From assembly GCA_949751835.1 (NCBI GenBank), contig CATKHK010000052.1, positions 248,001-312,000 on the forward strand: a DNA stretch of 64,000 bases, in the 5' to 3' direction. Every line of letters starts with the position of its first letter. Position 1 is the first letter of the stretch. Of the stretch, positions 9,204-52,143 are shown one piece after another. The translations under genes were made by a program, and so were the position numbers. The notes beneath the pieces are model-generated. The model was not told where the DNA came from. It ran no database searches and saw only the letters and a list, made by a program, of their open reading frames with translations. Origin of the DNA: Blepharisma japonicum. Taxonomy: Eukaryota > Ciliophora > Heterotrichea > Heterotrichida > Blepharismidae.

Positions 9204-9276
9204 GCCCGTCTAGCTCAGTCGGTAGAGCGCCAGCCTTTTAAGCTGGTGGTCGGGGGTTCGAGCCCCCCGGTGGGCG
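9204..9276 (+). tRNA. tRNA-Lys (anticodon TTT)
   Basis: A 73-nt cloverleaf. The acceptor arm GCCCGTC pairs with GGTGGGC (two G-U pairs); the D arm is GCTC...GAGC, the anticodon arm CCAGC/GCTGG with loop CTTTTAA (anticodon TTT at 9237-9239), and the T arm GGGGG/CCCCC around TTCGAGC. Discriminator base G at 9276. No intron and no encoded CCA. A TTTT run at 9277-9280 directly after it is the expected Pol III terminator. Its high GC content stands out sharply from the flanking AT-rich DNA. Confidence 0.97.
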
Positions 9277-9601: not shown

Positions 9602-10183
9602 TTATAAGACATAAAGCCTGCTAGAAGAGTTTAAATCTTTTAGTAAGCTGTCTAAATCATCTTTAGGGTTTTTGATATTTTCCTGCTTGATTTGATCTAG
9701 AAAATCGAAATTAAAACCATCACCAGGTTTTGCATCAAAAATTATTTTTTTCTCTCTAAAGATTGAAGTAGGTTTAGGCTTATTTACTAAAGGAAATTGA
9801 GTATAAGTTGCTGGAAGTGGTGGGTTTGGGATTGGTGCAAGCTTGCGTGGATATTTAGAAATTTTCCTATCCATTGAATTTTCCAATTTTTTTGCAGCTT
9901 TGACCACTTCAGCTTCTTCATCTTCACTCGTTTTCCTTATATTTTTCTCAGGAAGATATTTTTCAGCTTCTAAATCTTCTTGCTTTATTGAAATTTCATT
10001 AGAATTTGCCTGTGAAACTTCCTCCTTTGCAGATATATTAAGCAAAGAACTACTTGGATGTAAAAATATTACATCGTCAAAGAATGCATTAGCATCAAAA
10101 GTTTCAGTTTTTGCAAACAATTCAGTCGGCTCCACTGGGATTTCAACTTCCTGCACCTGTTGCTTATTATTGCCACATCCCAT
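9602..10183 (-). CDS. Unrecognised acidic protein with N-terminal acylation signal
   Basis: Protein of 193 aa beginning MGCGNNKQ. Gly2 followed by Cys3 is a classic N-myristoylation plus palmitoylation context, so membrane attachment is likely (inference). The rest is low-complexity, acidic in the middle and Pro-rich around residues 115-140 (PIPNPPLP), with no domain I recognise. Its ATG lies 20 nt after the stop of the triple-PX gene on the same strand. No paralogue is seen in the window, apart from the similar start of the small protein at 24514-24750. Confidence 0.7.
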   Translation of the reverse strand: MGCGNNKQQVQEVEIPVEPTELFAKTETFDANAFFDDVIFLHPSSSLLNISAKEEVSQANSNEISIKQEDLEAEKYLPEKNIRKTSEDEEAEVVKAAKKLENSMDRKISKYPRKLAPIPNPPLPATYTQFPLVNKPKPTSIFREKKIIFDAKPGDGFNFDFLDQIKQENIKNPKDDLDSLLKDLNSSSRLYVL

Positions 10184-10203: not shown

Positions 10204-12156
10204 TTAGTCATATAAATTTTGTTTAATTTCAGGATCATCAATAAATTCTCTGAATGCAAAAGATTCTGCTGATATAGACAAACTTATTAAGTCTTCTATA
10301 TACCTCTCAAGACCTTTACGCCTTGCTTCAATTTCACTGGGAGATGATAAAGGAGAAATACTTTTCCCAGGCAATGGTGGCAATGTTTGGGTTTCTATTG
10401 AATTTTTTCTTGTTTTTGAGATATTTATTTTCTGTTGGAATCTTATGTAATTAAACAATGCTGGGCTTTCTAATCTTTTTAATAAAAATCTGTTCAAATG
10501 ATTGAAATCTTTATACCTCCTTTTCACATTTCATTCACACAACTGTCGGCCTTTGTAAAGCTTTGAAAAACCTAGCGAATATAATAAAAAATGTGATTCC
10601 TTATCTACTTCACCTTCCCATGTAATAGGAGAGTGAAGAATATACGAAATCCCCTGCAACTTGCTTTTCCATATAGATTCCAAATCAACCCCACAGTTAA
10701 TAAAATCTAATACATCTTGGCACAAAAATGCAGCATCATTCAAAACATGGCCTAAATAGTTTTCCAATTTTCTTTTTCTAATTTCCAAAGCATGGGAATC
10801 TTGTGACCGAAAAGTCTGTAAATAATTTTTTGATGGAAATTTTGGAAGACTAGCAGGCATTAACAGTTTTTTTAATTTGGTATGAAATTCATAAAAATCG
10901 TTAAAGCGCTTTTTAAGTGTAGCTTCTTGGTTTAGCCGAGGGATTTTTCATTGAATTATATATTCAATGTGTCCTCCTTCTTCTACCCACTTGACGATGT
11001 TTACATTAATAAAAGCATGCAGATGATAATTAGGGACTTGGACAGAGTCAGCTTCATCGGTGTGCACAAATTTTGGTTGATAATAATTGACTGCAATGGA
11101 GCCGTGGCGGCTTGAATATTCTTCATTCGCAATGCTTAAATGTCTTTCTTCATTTACAACTTTGTTGTGCTGCTCTAAGCAGGCTGCCCTTTCAGTCCCA
11201 TTAATTTCTAAAAAATCAAGCAAAGAATTAGCCATAAATTCTGGGTAGCAAAGTTCTTCTAAATACTCATTTAATGCTTTCATTCTTTGATCAAGATTAT
11301 ATGAATTGTGCTGGAACAGTGGGAATGAAGGGAAATCTAGATATGGAAATTCGTCGACAGGGAATTTCAGCCTTAAGTTTTTATGCAATGAATCGAACTC
11401 TGCATAGGTTCTCCTTACTGTATGTGTTTTGCCTGCAATAGCCACTATAATATGAAAATATACAACTTGCTTATTACTTTCAGTCTTAATTTTACATTCT
11501 TTTATAGAAGTTGATAATGTTTTTTGTTCTTGGACTTCTTGATCAAGCACAGTTTTTCTTCTTCCAACTGTCGTTCTTCGATTTCTATTGTTATTTCTTG
11601 TAGAGTAAAGTAGAGGATCATTATTTATTAGGGAAAACTCATTTGGTCTAAATACAGAGTATGCTGCAAGAATGCAGCATATTATAAATGCAAGTAAAAA
11701 TGTTATAATTTTTTCTACTGGTATCAAATCATGATAATCAGCCTCTGAAATAGTCTCTAAAATTTCTAAAACTGCAAAAATAAGATGCATGACCATATTG
11801 ATTGGCCAAAAACTTCTATGTCCGCTTCATTTCATACGAAGTCTCCTTCTCGTTTCAAAAATTACTAAATAAAAGCTAATAAATCATGCAAAACCTAATG
11901 ATGCAAAGAAAAATACTCTAACTGATTTTTCTGATGTTGAATAATCAGAAGGAATAAGGTCAAATACATGAATAAAGCAAAAAATCATCATAAGAAATGT
12001 ACAGATATATTTTATAGTAAGATTTCTTGAAAAGTGATGGGTTCGATCTGTTCCGTCGTTAAAATGACGTCGGCAACGAAATAGTGCATAGCAGATAAAT
12101 CAGAAAGGAATCAACAGCATTGGCGAGTAGAGTTCAACTAGGTTTATATGCTCCAT
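10204..12156 (-). CDS. Five-helix membrane protein (ABCC TMD0-like) with three tandem PX domains
   Basis: One 650-aa frame when TGAs are read as Trp (at 10528, 10948 and several sites in the N-terminal helices). Residues 10-170 hold about five hydrophobic helices. After the third comes a basic loop, ETRRRLRMKWSGHRSFWP, resembling the TMD0 segment of ABCC/MRP transporters, but no ATP-binding domain follows. Three PX-like domains follow: about 215-325 (core RRTYAEFDSLH), about 375-470 (KKRFNDFYEFH) and about 515-640 (KRRYKDFNHLNRF). Each keeps the basic-x-aromatic motif and a later hydrophobic helix with a conserved Arg/Lys-rich turn. PX domains bind phosphoinositides, so an endosomal or vacuolar tether or scaffold is plausible (inference). 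The TMD0 comparison is by pattern only. Confidence 0.78.
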
Positions 12157-20982: not shown

Positions 20983-23900
20983 ATGGACGTCATAATTTTA
21001 ATGGAGCCATTATTAGAAGGACTAGATTCTGACATCTCTCAAAACAGCCAAAAATTACAAATTTCTCCCGAAAAACTAAACGAGATGTTCATACTTGATA
21101 ACATAAAATCCAATAAAAGCTCACAGTTATTAGAAGAACTTGGCCATATCGATGGTCTTTGCAAAAATCTTTACACTGATAAGAAAAAAGGGATAAATAT
21201 GAATGATGAATTAACTAGCGAAAGAATAAAGATATACGGAGATAATAAGCCAATTGAAAGAAAAAAGGTATCATTTTTCAAATTACTATGAGATGCTTTA
21301 GATGACACAATTTTAAGGATACTAATAATTGCTGCCACAGTATCCTTAATTATTGGAATTATAGAAGAGCCTAGTGAAGGCTGGCTTGAAGGGACCGCAA
21401 TTTTAGTAGCTGTAATTATAGTTGTATTAGTTACAGCTATAAATAACTATATCAAAGAAATTCAGTTTAGAAAACTTGACCAAGCTGCCCAGATGAGGCT
21501 TATAACAGTAAAAAGAGAAGAAAACCATAGAACAGATAAACAAATTTCAATTTTTGATTTATTGGTAGGAGATATTATAAAAATTGGAAGTGGCGATATT
21601 ATTCCTGCTGACTCAGTTCTTATTGAATCAAATAACATCATAGCAGACGAAAGCTCAATGACTGGAGAATCAGATAACGTTAATAAAGGCTATGGCGAAG
21701 ACGAATCCCCATTTTTAATTTCAGGGTCACAAATTACAGATGGCTCTGGAACTGCTTTAGTTCTCGCTGTCGGAAAAAATAGTTTTCAAGGAAAAAACTA
21801 TGAAATGTTGCAGCAAGAAGAAACAGATGAAACCCCACTTCAGCAGAAACTTAATTGGATTGCTTTTGGGATTGGAAAAGTTGGCCTTGCTGTTGCAATT
21901 TTGACATTTTTGGTTCTAATAATATATCTAATTATTGATGTAGCAGAAGATGGATGGGTTGAAGAAACATGGTCAAGGCTAATATCAGATTTTATTATTT
22001 CAATCACTATTATTGTTGTTGCTGTTCCTGAAGGGCTTCCTTTAGCTGTAACTTTAAGCTTAGCTTATTCTGTAAATCAAATGAAGCAGCAAAATAACTT
22101 AGTCCGACACTTAGATGCTTCAGAAACAATGGGCCAAGCTACTAATATTTGTACAGATAAAACAGGGACTTTGACACAAAATATTATGGAGGTGGTTTCA
22201 ATATACACGCAAAGCCAAAAATTTGATAATGGCTTCAATCTTAAAGAAAATACAAGAAATATGCTAATAGAGCATTGTTGCTTTAATTCAACAGCAAGCA
22301 TTTCAGTTCATGAAAATAAAGAAACCTTCACTGGGTCTAGAACAGAAATCGCTTTATTAAAGCTTGTCAAAAAATTTGGCGCCCAATATGAAGAAATAAG
22401 AGATTCTACCGAAATTTTTTTCCAAGTCCCATTTTCTTCAAAAACCAAAAAAATGGTCACAGTCATTGAAAAAAATGATTGCTATTTAATTTTAGTAAAA
22501 GGTGCAAGTGAAGCTGTTTTAGAATGCTGCGATACTTATTGGAATAAAGAAGAAAAAGATGAAGCCATTAGTGGAGAAATGAAAAATGAAATAAATAAAA
22601 TAATTTCTGGGTATGCACAGAAGGCATTGAGGACTTTAACAATGGCTTATAAAAAGGTGGATAAAAATTTTTCTATTAAAGAAAATGTGGAAAATCTGAC
22701 AGAAAGTTTGACCTTGCTAGCAATAATTGGAATCGAAGACCCACTAAGAGATGAAGTCCCAGACGCAGTAAAAAAGTGCCAAAATGCAGGAATTATTGTA
22801 AGGATGGTAACAGGCGATAACAGGGATACTGCAGTTTCTATTGCAAAAAGATGTAATATTTTGCCTGAAGACTATATCGATAATGAAGAGGATACAGTTA
22901 TGCTGGGGTCAGAATTTAGAGAAAGATCAGGATATTTACTAAATGAATCAGACAATTCAAGGGCAGAATCCCAGAATATCCAAAAACAAGAAAAATTGAT
23001 TGTAGGGAATTTTGAAGAATTTAAAAAAATTATTAAAAAATTAAGAGTTTTAGCACGATCATCCCCTGAAGATAAATTTATTTTAATCACAGGCCTAAGA
23101 CAAATGAATGAAATTGTAGCTGTAACTGGTGACGGCACCAATGATGCCCCAGCTTTAAAAAAATCAAATGTAGGGTTCGCTATGCACCAAGCTGGAACTC
23201 AGCTAGCTCAACAAGCTTCAGATATAATTCTACTTGATGATAATTTTGCTTCTATAGTAACAGCAGTATTATGAGGAAGAAATATTTATGAATGTATCAG
23301 TAAGTTTATACAATTTCAATTAACTGTTAATATAGTAGCACTTATACTTTCCTTTGTTGGGGCTATAGTATTACATCGAGCACCATTAACAGCGGTTCAA
23401 ATGCTTTGGGTTAATCTGATTATGGACACTTTTGCAGCTTTGGCTTTGGCTACTGAACCACCTGATATTAAACTTCTTGAGAAAAAACCAATAAAATCAA
23501 CTGATTCTTTATTAACACCTGATATGTTGAAAAATATTATTGCACAAGTTATTTTCCAATGCACTTGCCTTTTTATTATTTTATTTTTAATGCCAGTTGT
23601 CATTGACATGTCGACAGGGACACATTTTACCATATTTTTTAATACTTTTGTATTTCTGCAGATTTTTAATGAAATTAATTGCAGGAAAGTAAAATCTGAA
23701 GAAAAAAATGTATTCAAAGGAATAACGAAAAATTGAATATTTTTAGGGATTATAATTGGGACAGTGATAATTCAGATAGTATTAGTGCAATTTGGAGGGC
23801 AGCCGGTAAATACAGTCCCTTTGACATTTCTCGAGCATCTGTTTTGTATTTTTATTGGAACCGGTGCTTTAAAAATTGGAATTTTAGTAAGGTTTTTGCC

Positions 23901-24066
23901 ATCCCCAAAGTTTGATTTTTTAAAATTTTCTGAAGAGCCACTTAAGAGAGATATTTATGAAAAAAAAATCACTGGGTTTATCAGAAGGAGGACTAGGAAA
24001 TTTAGCAAGAAAAACAAAAGCAAGTCAATGAGCGAGATTGAGAGACAAACAAGTATAGAAGTTTAA
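20983..24066 (+). CDS. Plasma-membrane-type Ca2+-transporting P-type ATPase (P2B)
   Basis: Protein of 1027 aa in a single frame with TGA as Trp. P-type landmarks: TGES (227-230), PEGLP (349-353), the phosphorylated Asp in ICTDKTGT (D392), KGASE in the nucleotide-binding domain, and VTGDGTNDAPAL (D717 in GDGTND). About ten membrane helices are present, including LWVNLIMDTFAALALATEPP, the M6 signature of P2B pumps. The short basic C-tail (RRRTRKFSKKNKSKS) could be a regulatory, calmodulin-binding-like region, but a classic site is not clear. The pump exports Ca2+ at plasma membrane or alveolar/vacuolar membranes. A second ATG six codons on could be the real start. Confidence 0.95.
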
Positions 24067-46453: not shown

Positions 46454-48085
46454 TTATAAACTATGGAAATGCACTTTATGTTCCAGAGCTTCAATTATTG
46501 TATTTTTCTTAGCTCTGGGAGTTCTATGAAAGGAGTTAAAATCGTTGCTTTCTGCGAGCTCTTTTAAATTTTTCCATGAACTTTTAATAAAATTAGTTTC
46601 CTCAACAAATTCACTGCATAGAAACTTCGTCATATCAGGCATTAATATTGTTTTATAAACTATTTTGCTTCGGAATTCATTGCTGCCAAAAATTCTTTCT
46701 CCTTGCATATCATAGGATGCCCCATCACTATGAGTTTCTTCAGGCTTATTTTTCATATCATAAATTTCATATTTGCTGCCACTACAATGGACTCTTGCAT
46801 ATTGCGGATTAATTGGGATTCTTGGGGTTTCAATGGATGCATATTCAACTGATGCATAATTTTCCTGAACATGCATTATACAGCTTAAGGCCAAATCCAT
46901 TTTTTCATTTTTATCTGATAGAAATACGATGGCTACTAAGGACTCATTTTCACTGATATTTTCTATAATATCATATTCTAATAGTAAAGAGTCCCATTTT
47001 TTTCTTAAAGTAGGCTCTGTTATAATTTCTACTAAAGCTGCTATTGAAGCTTCTATTTCGATTTCTAAACTCATCTCGAAAAGATGGTTTATTTTTCTAT
47101 ATTTAATATTTAGCCCACCCGAATAATGCTGAGTATTTAATTTTTTTCAATTTTCTGTGGTTTGAGGATTATTTTCTTGGCTATTTTTAATAAAAAGCAA
47201 TGGGCGGGTCCAGCTTCTATATGCTTCTAAGGCTTCATTATCATTATTTAGTATATATATAAGTAAATTGCTGGAGCTTTTCAAAGTTAACTGTTCTTCA
47301 ATTATTTTACATAAGTGAAAAGCTTGCTCAGCTAGGAATTTCCCTGTTAAATGCAAATTTAGTTTCATTTCTCTCAATAAATCAATATCAATTTTCATCA
47401 TAACATCTATGATTAAACTATAGTTTCGAAACATATCGCAGCTTGTCAATTTTGATAAAATATCAAAAGCTTTGGCTCCTACTCCAGGAATCCCACACAG
47501 AGGAATAAGCCTTGACAACAAAATTGATGCTGTGCGCTCTGAAATGTCAGGCCTTGCATTAAAAAACTCATTTTCTAATCTTTCAATTGCTTTTCCACGC
47601 TTTTTCTCAGATTTGGAAAGCCTTTTAATAAAAGACGCAACTGCTAGGTCAAGATCAGAAAGGCTGCACTGATGGCTTTGAGTAAAATCATGCACAAGTG
47701 GCTGATACATCTCAGGGATTTCTAAGAAATTTTGCATATGAGGTAAAAACTGAGTTATCTGCAGTGCAGAGTTTAGTCATTTTTCCAAATTTTGTCGACG
47801 CTTTGTTATGGTTGCTTTTAATTTTTTGCCAAAAATCTGTTTTTTAGGAAATTCAGGCAGATTTTTATAGCAATCGGCAAATATAAATTCATGCTTAAGC
47901 TCTTTATAAAGCAAACGGAATTGGCTATATCTTTTAAAAAGTTTATATTTAAGTGTATGAAACCCTACAGCGACTTCATATTCCTATCTATTCTTTACTG
48001 TATATGCCCTTGCAAACACCTGATTTGGGTTCGTAAGTTTCGCATGAGGGATTTCCACATAGATGCACCCGTCAAATATTTCCAT
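46454..48085 (-). CDS. PX-START two-domain lipid protein, one 15-nt intron
   Basis: Protein of 538 aa. Exons are 47999-48085 and 46454-47983; the intron GTAAAGAATAGATAG (47984-47998) lies in phase 0. An N-terminal PX domain (about residues 5-115) has VGFHTLKYKLFKRYSQFRLL with the KRYSQF phosphoinositide-site motif and a following RRQNLEKWL helix. A helical linker (120-330) follows; a TGA at 47144-47146 links it in frame to the C-terminal START-like domain (about 333-510), which holds PTLRKKWDSLLLEYDIIENI and ARVHCSGSKYEIYDM. Without UGA=Trp this would look like two genes. It probably couples endosomal phosphoinositide binding to lipid sensing or transfer (inference). Confidence 0.83.
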
Positions 48086-50400: not shown

Positions 50401-52143
50401 TTAGCTTACGTTATGAAAAGCTTGGATACACTCATGCCTTACTTGTGTAAGTGTTGCTACCAAATCTGCCCAAAGTTCATGCAATTTAGTAGTATAGTCT
50501 GAGAAAACTCTTCCGAATTCTGTAAAATGGGCGTTTTCTTTGGCTTGGTTGTCGATGAAAACTCGTGCTGTTTCTGATTTTACTTGATAGTTGTAAAAGG
50601 CGAAATCATCCCTAAGCTTTTCGAGCTCTTTAGTTTCCTTAGCCATCATTTTTGCAAAGGCCGCTTCTTTATCTTCTAATAAAGTTTGAGTGTTATTTAA
50701 AGCGTCAGGGCTAAGTCCCCATTTTGAAATGTCCTTGGCTTGTCACAGTTTTTCTTTTCTACCTTTTAGCTTTTGTAAAGCTTTCTGATAGGCAGCACAT
50801 TTAATTTCTTTTTCTTTTGCAAGCTCAATCAGCGGTATAACTTCATTATATTCATATTTAAAGAAGAAGTTGCAATAATTTTTCACAATATCAGCTGATT
50901 CATTTTCACGGTCTGACCAAATTGCAAAGCTGGTTTTCAGTGAATTATACAAAGGCTTAACACCTGGAATACCTGGAAATTTATCTTGGAGATTTTCTAA
51001 AGCTTCAAAGCTTCTTGCTATATCAAGAATCATTGCAGCAACATTATTTATGGCTTCGCATAAGGAATCAGTCTGCCTCTTCAGTTTCTTCTTCAAAACT
51101 TGGGTGTTTTTTAAATAGTCTTCAATATTTGCATTTTCTTTTTCATCATGTTTTGGATCACATGCAAGATAGCCATCAAGTGTTAAAAATTCAGAATAAT
51201 TTTGAGGTTTTTTGACCTTGCTGGCTTGTTTTTTAAGCTTGGAAAATTCTTTGGGGTCGTCTTCTTTTAGAAATCCTAAGAGAAATTGAGACCTTTTAAA
51301 CAAGGGATTTCTGACAATTGTTGATAAAAAATGTTGTAAATAAGCCTGCTGTTTTTCTTGGTTTTCTTCTCCATGAGCACCTATAACTCTTTTAGGAGGG
51401 TTAGGGGGTAAATATGAGGTAGGGAAGCAAGTACCTAGAATTCCTTTGAGCCAAACGAAATCATCTTCTTGACGCTTAACTTTCCAATTAAAAGGTTTTG
51501 TAGTAATTGGGAAATTTATTTTTGTCATAGAAAACATACCACCTGTAGAATATTCTGGACTATATAAAAGTTACCATCCCACATGAACATCAGGAGAAAT
51601 TTCTTTAGAAAGTTGGTTGTCAGAGGTTTTTAAAGCATTTAAGAAATATGTTTTTATATCTTCAAAAGAACTGAGAGATCTTTGGGGCTCTTGTTTCACT
51701 TCAAGTTGTTGATCATTTTTCTGCTCTGTTGGTTCCGATTGCTCTTGATTAGAAGATTCTGCGACTTCTTTGGTTTCTTCAATGTTTTCTTGAGGTGTTT
51801 CTGTTGTAATGTTCTCATTTTGATTGTGCTTCTTAGTTGCAGGAAATTTCTCTTCTTCTACGTTTTGATTTCTAGGCTGGCTCAATGCTGGCTCTTTGCT
51901 CACCTTACTTTCTGGCTCTTCATTATTATTTTTTTCTTCATCAGCTTTTTTGGCTTGCATTGCTTGGAAATTTCTAACACATTCTTTTAATTCTGCAAGA
52001 GTCCAAAGATCAATATCAGCTCCTCTTAGGATATCGCAATAGTCTGTGAACTCTTCTGGGGAATATCCTTTATTGATAATTTGTTCACGTAAGAAGGCTC
52101 TTTTTTGAGGCCTTTCGCTTTCATCTTGCAAGTCAGGATCCAT
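50401..52143 (-). CDS. Sorting nexin with PX and BAR domains (Vps5/SNX1-2-like), one intron
   Basis: Protein of 575 aa. Exons are 51575-52143 and 50401-51559; the intron GTAACTTTTATATAG (51560-51574) splits a Cys codon. The N-terminal 50 residues (YSPEEFTDYCDILRGADIDL) are a small helical domain, followed by an acidic Gln/Glu-rich linker. A PX domain (about 190-300) holds FVWLKGILGTCFPTSYLPPN and the RNPLFKRSQFLLGFL closing helix. A BAR-type coiled coil runs to the end. In yeast and animals, PX-BAR nexins form the tubulating part of retromer. The PX domain lacks an obvious RRY motif before the WL helix (it has KRQEDDFVWL), so phosphoinositide affinity may be altered. Confidence 0.87.

Follow-up and report, generated by a model that had tools for sequence, protein, structure and literature searches.

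TMD0 is an add-on of ABC transporters and a docking piece of the KATP channel, and SNX13, SNX14, SNX19, SNX25 and Mdm1 are membrane-anchored PX proteins that carry PXA, RGS and C-terminal nexin domains. SNX22, SGK3 (CISK) and SNX27 have a single PX domain and no known membrane-spanning part. More than one PX domain per chain is described for the Trypanosoma PX-PX proteins of subfamily B, which have two, and the text portion that covers them mentions no membrane anchor (PMC10380299). According to a survey of FYVE and PX proteins, Paramecium and Tetrahymena have an unusually large number of PX domains; the words transmembrane and tandem do not occur in the main text as excerpted (PMC2837644). 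Here we describe a gene of the ciliate Blepharisma japonicum that lies within positions 248001-312000 of contig C52 (the window, that is, the whole stretch of 64,000 nucleotides that was analysed). Its 650-amino-acid (aa) product joins a five-helix membrane domain, probably homologous to TMD0, to three PX domains, and the arrangement recurs in paralogues elsewhere in the genome, scans of which covered 45,185,585 bases in 224 contigs.

The coding sequence (10204..12156, minus strand) is a single uninterrupted frame that encodes 650 aa and ends in a stop codon when TGA is read as tryptophan, and five full or partial paralogues are colinear with it as single frames. A Pfam scan of the 650 aa gave PX (PF00787) as the sole family over its cut-off, in three stretches (E 9.6e-36; 122.6 bits against a curated cut-off of 21.6), and the genome-wide PX scan placed matches in the gene at window positions 10237-10545, 10696-10932 and 11206-11433. 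Upstream of these in the protein, hydropathy analysis found five helices at about aa 4-28, 46-70, 80-101, 116-135 and 151-173, and a single-sequence structure model of low confidence has long helices at aa 6-34, 42-66, 74-107, 117-138 and 147-169. The initial annotation had proposed a 650-aa protein with five helices and three PX domains at 10204..12156; frame, Pfam and hydropathy all agree with this, and we add that the gene is on the minus strand. Also as annotated, the protein has no ABC core: the Pfam scan found none of TMD1, NBD1, TMD2 and NBD2 over cut-off. Like the Trypanosoma proteins it has more than one PX domain per chain. Unlike SNX13, SNX14, SNX19, SNX25 and Mdm1, it has three PX domains, not one, and when it and the six family members were scanned with Pfam, neither PXA, RGS and C-terminal nexin domains nor a BAR domain after PX (the SNX-BAR layout) appeared.

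A genome search with the window protein returned at least 16 matches, six of which are family members, while the remaining ten cover the PX part alone (E 4.6e-5 to 0.19). The family has at least six members in the genome: four with five transmembrane helices followed by three PX domains (TM5-PX-PX-PX, 631-650 aa) and two with the helices and the first PX domain (TM5-PX1). The whole layout is present as a single frame in L010 (650 aa, 82% identity to the window protein), L011 (636 aa, 47%) and L012 (631 aa, 48%); L013 and L014, 328 aa each, have the helices and PX1 and then a stop. PX was matched by Pfam in all six members, and the five-helix plan lies above the hydropathy threshold in five of them, the fourth helix of L014 falling below it. 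Judged from these sequences, the architecture is not a product of chance, because three further genes repeat the whole layout, with identity that spans almost their full length, and two more have helices and PX1. A candidate seventh member at C46 (E 0.28, 25% identity) was rejected as chance, its contig being without a PX match and the surrounding DNA without a family-like frame beyond a 175-aa stretch. Searches for relatives in viral contigs (45 pattern matches) and in prokaryote genomes (41 matches) yielded no confirmed case.

Between the window gene and L010, nonsynonymous divergence (dN) is 0.105 and synonymous divergence (dS) is 2.03, a value near saturation. The regional dN values are 0.113 (helices), 0.160 (linker), 0.104 (PX1), 0.091 (PX2) and 0.088 (PX3). 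By this measure every part of the protein is constrained, because dN is low in all regions. These comparisons also bear on whether the gene model could be an artefact, with two genes read through as one or a frame that is open only under the chosen code. Five TGA codons do lie within the frame, encoding W19, W91, W110, W403 and W542. In-frame TGA, read as tryptophan, is common to many other frames of the window, and in Blepharisma stoltei UGA has been reassigned to tryptophan and the tiny introns are mostly 15 and 16 bp (PMC9942806). Against an artefact, in all five paralogues a single frame runs across this junction under the same code, the TGA-coded W91 is invariant across the six-member alignment, and dN is far below dS on either side of the join between helices and PX domains. 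We therefore regard such an artefact as highly improbable.

The membrane domain (aa 1-173; 11638..12156, minus strand) is TMD0-like in its five predicted helices and its predicted orientation, and a relationship is supported by comparing profiles. Aligned with a profile of the TMD0s of MRP1-3 (ABCC1, ABCC2 and ABCC3), the family profile scored 39.1 with a probability of 76. The 158 aligned columns begin at TM1 and keep the five helices in register up to where the L0 linker starts. When the columns of the family profile were shuffled within helices and within loops, none of 1,000 shuffles reached this score (mean 14.7, standard deviation 3.0, maximum 31.1), nor did any of 500 shuffles on the MRP side (maximum 28.0); the reversed family profile scored 15.0. 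The score persisted when the family was cut at seven points (34.0-39.5) and when any of three member pairs was dropped (35.2-36.7). Single members gave 27.9, 24.2, 16.9 (L011), 26.7, 33.0 and 29.5 in turn, against a maximum of 19.0 for decoys (64 overlapping helix-rich single-sequence windows from 18 other frames). The comparison with MRP1-3 was one of several profile comparisons tried and the sole strong one, but choosing among comparisons would not account for a margin over the shuffles as large as the one measured here.

The similarity extends to the end of the domain. The basic linker that follows (aa 174-213; 11518..11637, minus strand), which has the highest dN of the compared regions, has NNDP at its start, which hhalign aligned with IHDP, where the L0 linker of the MRPs starts. 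In all six members, the charge is +2 to +7 in loop 1, in loop 3 and in the segment that follows helix 5, and +0 to +2 in residues 1-3, in loop 2 and in loop 4. By the positive-inside rule, these loop charges predict an N-terminus outside and PX domains in the cytosol. The predicted N-out/C-in topology is thus supported; it suits PX domains, which must be cytosolic, and is the same as that of the ABCC TMD0. Unlike in MRP1-3, TMD1, TMD2 and the NBDs are missing from the family and PX domains follow instead.

Several results weigh against homology with TMD0. The Pfam model TMD0_ABC (PF24357) matches none of the six members, and neither does any MRP model of NCBIfam. A genome search with the TMD0 of MRP1 alone gave nothing, family members included. 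L011 on its own scores within the decoy range, with 16 of the 64 decoys as high. Against the MRPs taken singly, the family profile scored 20.3 (MRP1), 13.9 (MRP2) and 15.6 (MRP3), and against YCF1 and SUR1 alone 13.7 and 14.5. A mixed profile of five TMD0s scored 21.4, a value reached by 13 of 300 shuffles, and a profile of YCF1, SUR1 and MRP1 scored 23.2. A TMD0-like region that precedes an ABCC transporter of the same genome, on contig C84, matches neither the family (14.3) nor the MRPs (16.9). The structure models are poor (pLDDT 39.3 and 57.5); with the low-confidence model Foldseek found nothing significant and VIA-align ranked Hrd1 first. A profile search of solved structures returned nothing relevant (one match, E 0.078).

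The weight of some of these points is limited by how known TMD0s behave. The Pfam test is weak, because SUR1 itself falls below the cut-off (14.7 bits against 27, although MRP1, MRP2 and YCF1 pass) and the C84 region is missed; therefore the profile-profile comparison was made. The low scores of the family with other TMD0s are less telling, because known TMD0s also match each other poorly, the MRPs scoring 22.9 with YCF1 and 15.2 with SUR1. The five helices might instead be an unrelated anchor that resembles TMD0, the family then being a sorting nexin with a lineage-specific anchor. The negative results above would fit such an origin; the in-register match to MRP1-3, which no shuffle on either side equalled, and the prediction here too of the five-helix, N-out and C-in plan of TMD0 argue against it, and true TMD0s score low mutually in any case. 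We consider an unrelated anchor unlikely, and the membrane part of the family probably homologous to TMD0. The TMD0 likeness that the initial annotation proposed therefore stands in the comparison with MRP1-3 and is not borne out by Pfam TMD0_ABC or by the mixed profiles. The C-terminus of a P-type ATPase was also tried as a source of the helices and rejected, the family scoring 14.2 with the C-terminal part of the ATPase in the window; weak Pfam matches to Cation_ATPase_C occur in four of the six N-terminal stretches (best E 0.0034).

The ABC transporters of the genome provide a further reference. Among the best 5 of 118 candidates, a scan with MRP_assoc_pro gave at least ten matches at five loci. 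At one of these, a TMD0-like five-helix region with a lasso-like stretch (L029 715-1497; contig C84 37224-38006) precedes an ABCC TMD1; the motif ahead of this TMD1 is one that we take to be the lasso. Read in this way, the genome contains at least one TMD0-like ABCC besides the PX family. Pfam TMD0_ABC does not match the C84 region, and a genome search with it found, besides itself, two short matches, both to the lasso part. At the other four ABCC loci the frame before TMD1 has no five-helix region, though an intron could hide one. A scan with ABC_membrane gave 75 matches (the best 75 of 96 candidates), of which 30 loci, together with the five MRP_assoc_pro loci, made up 35 ABC loci. Their 115 upstream frame pieces scored at most 18.2 against the MRP profile; the C84 piece, the single one among them recognized by eye as a TMD0, scored 17.1. 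Because the C84 piece scores this low, the MRP profile does not detect distant TMD0s generally. Separately, PF24357 gave a match of 21.8 bits (cut-off 27) at C72, in a 276-aa frame beside a frame that looks transporter-like by eye.

The three PX domains, each placed by PX scan, Pfam and alignment on the minus strand, are PX1 (aa 214-325, Pfam core aa 242-317; 11182..11517), PX2 (aa 385-496, core aa 409-487; 10669..11004) and PX3 (aa 505-645, core aa 538-640; 10222..10644). The closest solved sequences are the PX domain of SNX22 for PX1, that of SGK3 (CISK), in the form of a designed CISK-PX, for PX2, and the PX domain of SNX27 for PX3, and pocket positions were fixed by alignment to solved PX domains. 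Human PX domains that bind phosphatidylinositol 3-phosphate (PtdIns3P) are reported to have an Arg-Tyr pair, a Lys in the PPK loop and an Arg in helix 2, and binding of the phosphatidylinositol bisphosphate (PIP2) type is said to be marked by basic residues together with His or Tyr where helix 1 begins (PMC6449406).

At the canonical site, PX1 of the window protein has T250 in place of the Arg and F278 in place of the PPK-loop Lys, but keeps R291; the Thr and Phe substitutions are found in all six members. PX2 has R417, F418, K443 and R460, and among the four long members Arg, Lys and Arg are invariant, with Tyr in two and Phe in two. PX3, which has an insert ahead of the PPK loop, has R547, Y548, K598 and R612, and all four pocket residues are present in all four long members. 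The position of the secondary site was located through an SNX1 stretch that fits the residue numbers of PMC6449406. By eye in the alignment, it is His in PX1 of five of six members (the window protein included), His in PX2 of all four long members and Asn in PX3 of all four.

By the rules for human PX domains, which make these assignments predictions, PX1 resembles group III and PX3 group II; PX2 resembles group IV, provided that Phe can do the work of Tyr. PX2 and PX3 should bind PtdIns3P. PX1 is predicted not to bind PtdIns3P in the canonical way; its ligand may be a PIP2-type lipid or a protein. Protein binding could apply more widely, with the PX domains, PX1 above all, serving to bind proteins and not to read lipids. 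In every member PX1 is without two of the four canonical residues and yet is still constrained, its dN between the window gene and L010 matching that of the whole protein; PX2, where two of the four carry Phe in place of Tyr, and PX3 keep the canonical residues in all long members, which argues for lipid reading in these two. We think it rather improbable, slightly more so than an unrelated anchor, that the PX domains bind protein instead of lipid. The initial annotation spoke of three lipid-reading heads; this description suits PX2 and PX3, which keep the PtdIns3P pocket, and fits PX1 poorly, two of its key residues being gone.

We propose that the window protein is integral to the membrane and resembles a sorting nexin, with the TMD0-like part serving as anchor or dock and the PX array reading phosphoinositides, a proposal that we put at about an even chance. 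The TMD0-like helices would hold the protein in the membrane. SUR1 offers the functional comparison, since its TMD0 is reported to dock it onto its partner Kir6.2 (PMC5344670). By analogy, the TMD0-like part here would probably dock a partner membrane protein, although SUR1 taken singly has no sequence match to the family and the docking partner is hypothetical. The cytosolic PX array would, most simply, read phosphoinositides on the same membrane, through avidity and coincidence detection, and this reading may locate the complex to the endocytic or the phagosomal system. Its position, and perhaps the activity of its partner, would then track lipid conversion along the endocytic or phagosomal route. 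The short paralogues L013 and L014 retain the anchor and PX1 only. Docking, lipid choice and reading in cis are inferred from the known role of TMD0 and from the residue rules for human PX domains.

Instead of reading its own membrane, the protein might act in trans as a tether, with the helices in one membrane and the PX array on a second, PtdIns3P-marked membrane, joining two organelles. Mdm1 and SNX14 have reportedly been proposed to hold two organelles together. Linkers of about 40 aa between TM5 and PX1 and about 60 aa between PX1 and PX2, by the domain limits chosen here, would permit the reach, and two canonical PX domains would lend avidity; against this, a spacer domain of the PXA kind, lying between helices and PX domains, was not found by Pfam. 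We hold tethering to be unlikely, if somewhat less so than an unrelated anchor. A bolder version of the main proposal would take the TMD0, freed from ABC transporters, as a general docking anchor joined to a graded reader, in which PX1 reads PIP2-type lipids, PX2 both PtdIns3P and PIP2, and PX3 PtdIns3P alone. The family would then represent a new class of integral-membrane sorting nexins that tell a docked channel or pump when phosphoinositides are converted on an organelle. This version is speculative, and we give it no better a chance than tethering.

We regard the protein as a new combination of known domains. The initial annotation knew of no described example, and within the open-access literature we likewise found none: no paper there contains both 'PX domain' and 'TMD0', and further PX searches in it turned up no protein of the TM5-PX type. 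A likely TMD0 relative without an ABC core would show that TMD0 can work as a portable membrane module. With three PX domains that are predicted to differ in lipid preference, a membrane protein would be well suited to sense changes in phosphoinositides. Because the six paralogues include forms with three PX domains and forms with one, what each head does can be tested within one organism.

The surroundings of the gene are partly shared with its paralogues. Directly downstream lies a gene for a 193-aa protein (window 9602-10183) that begins MGCGNNK, a possible N-myristoylation signal to judge by the motif. This protein is kept at 58% beside L010. Because L010 and the window gene adjoin the same ribosomal protein (uS11) and the same MGCG-protein, they are most simply explained as a segmental duplicate. 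L013 and L014 have one flanking gene in common. A P-type ATPase is encoded at window 20983-24066, at a distance of about 10 kb from the window gene, and each of the two short paralogues (contigs C9 and C67) likewise has an ATPase match about 10 kb away; when gene order was compared at C67, 4,001 bases from there gave no match to any of 35 frames taken from the initial 26 kb of the window. The single tRNA found in the window is a tRNA-Lys (TTT) at 9204-9276. The PX scan of the whole genome gave 96 matches at E 0.001 or better, and two further PX matches fall in the window, both on the minus strand, at 47720-47965 and at 51262-51498, the latter inside a 378-aa frame (50401-51537). Some PX matches of the genome hold an in-frame TAG or TAA, which may mark tiny introns.
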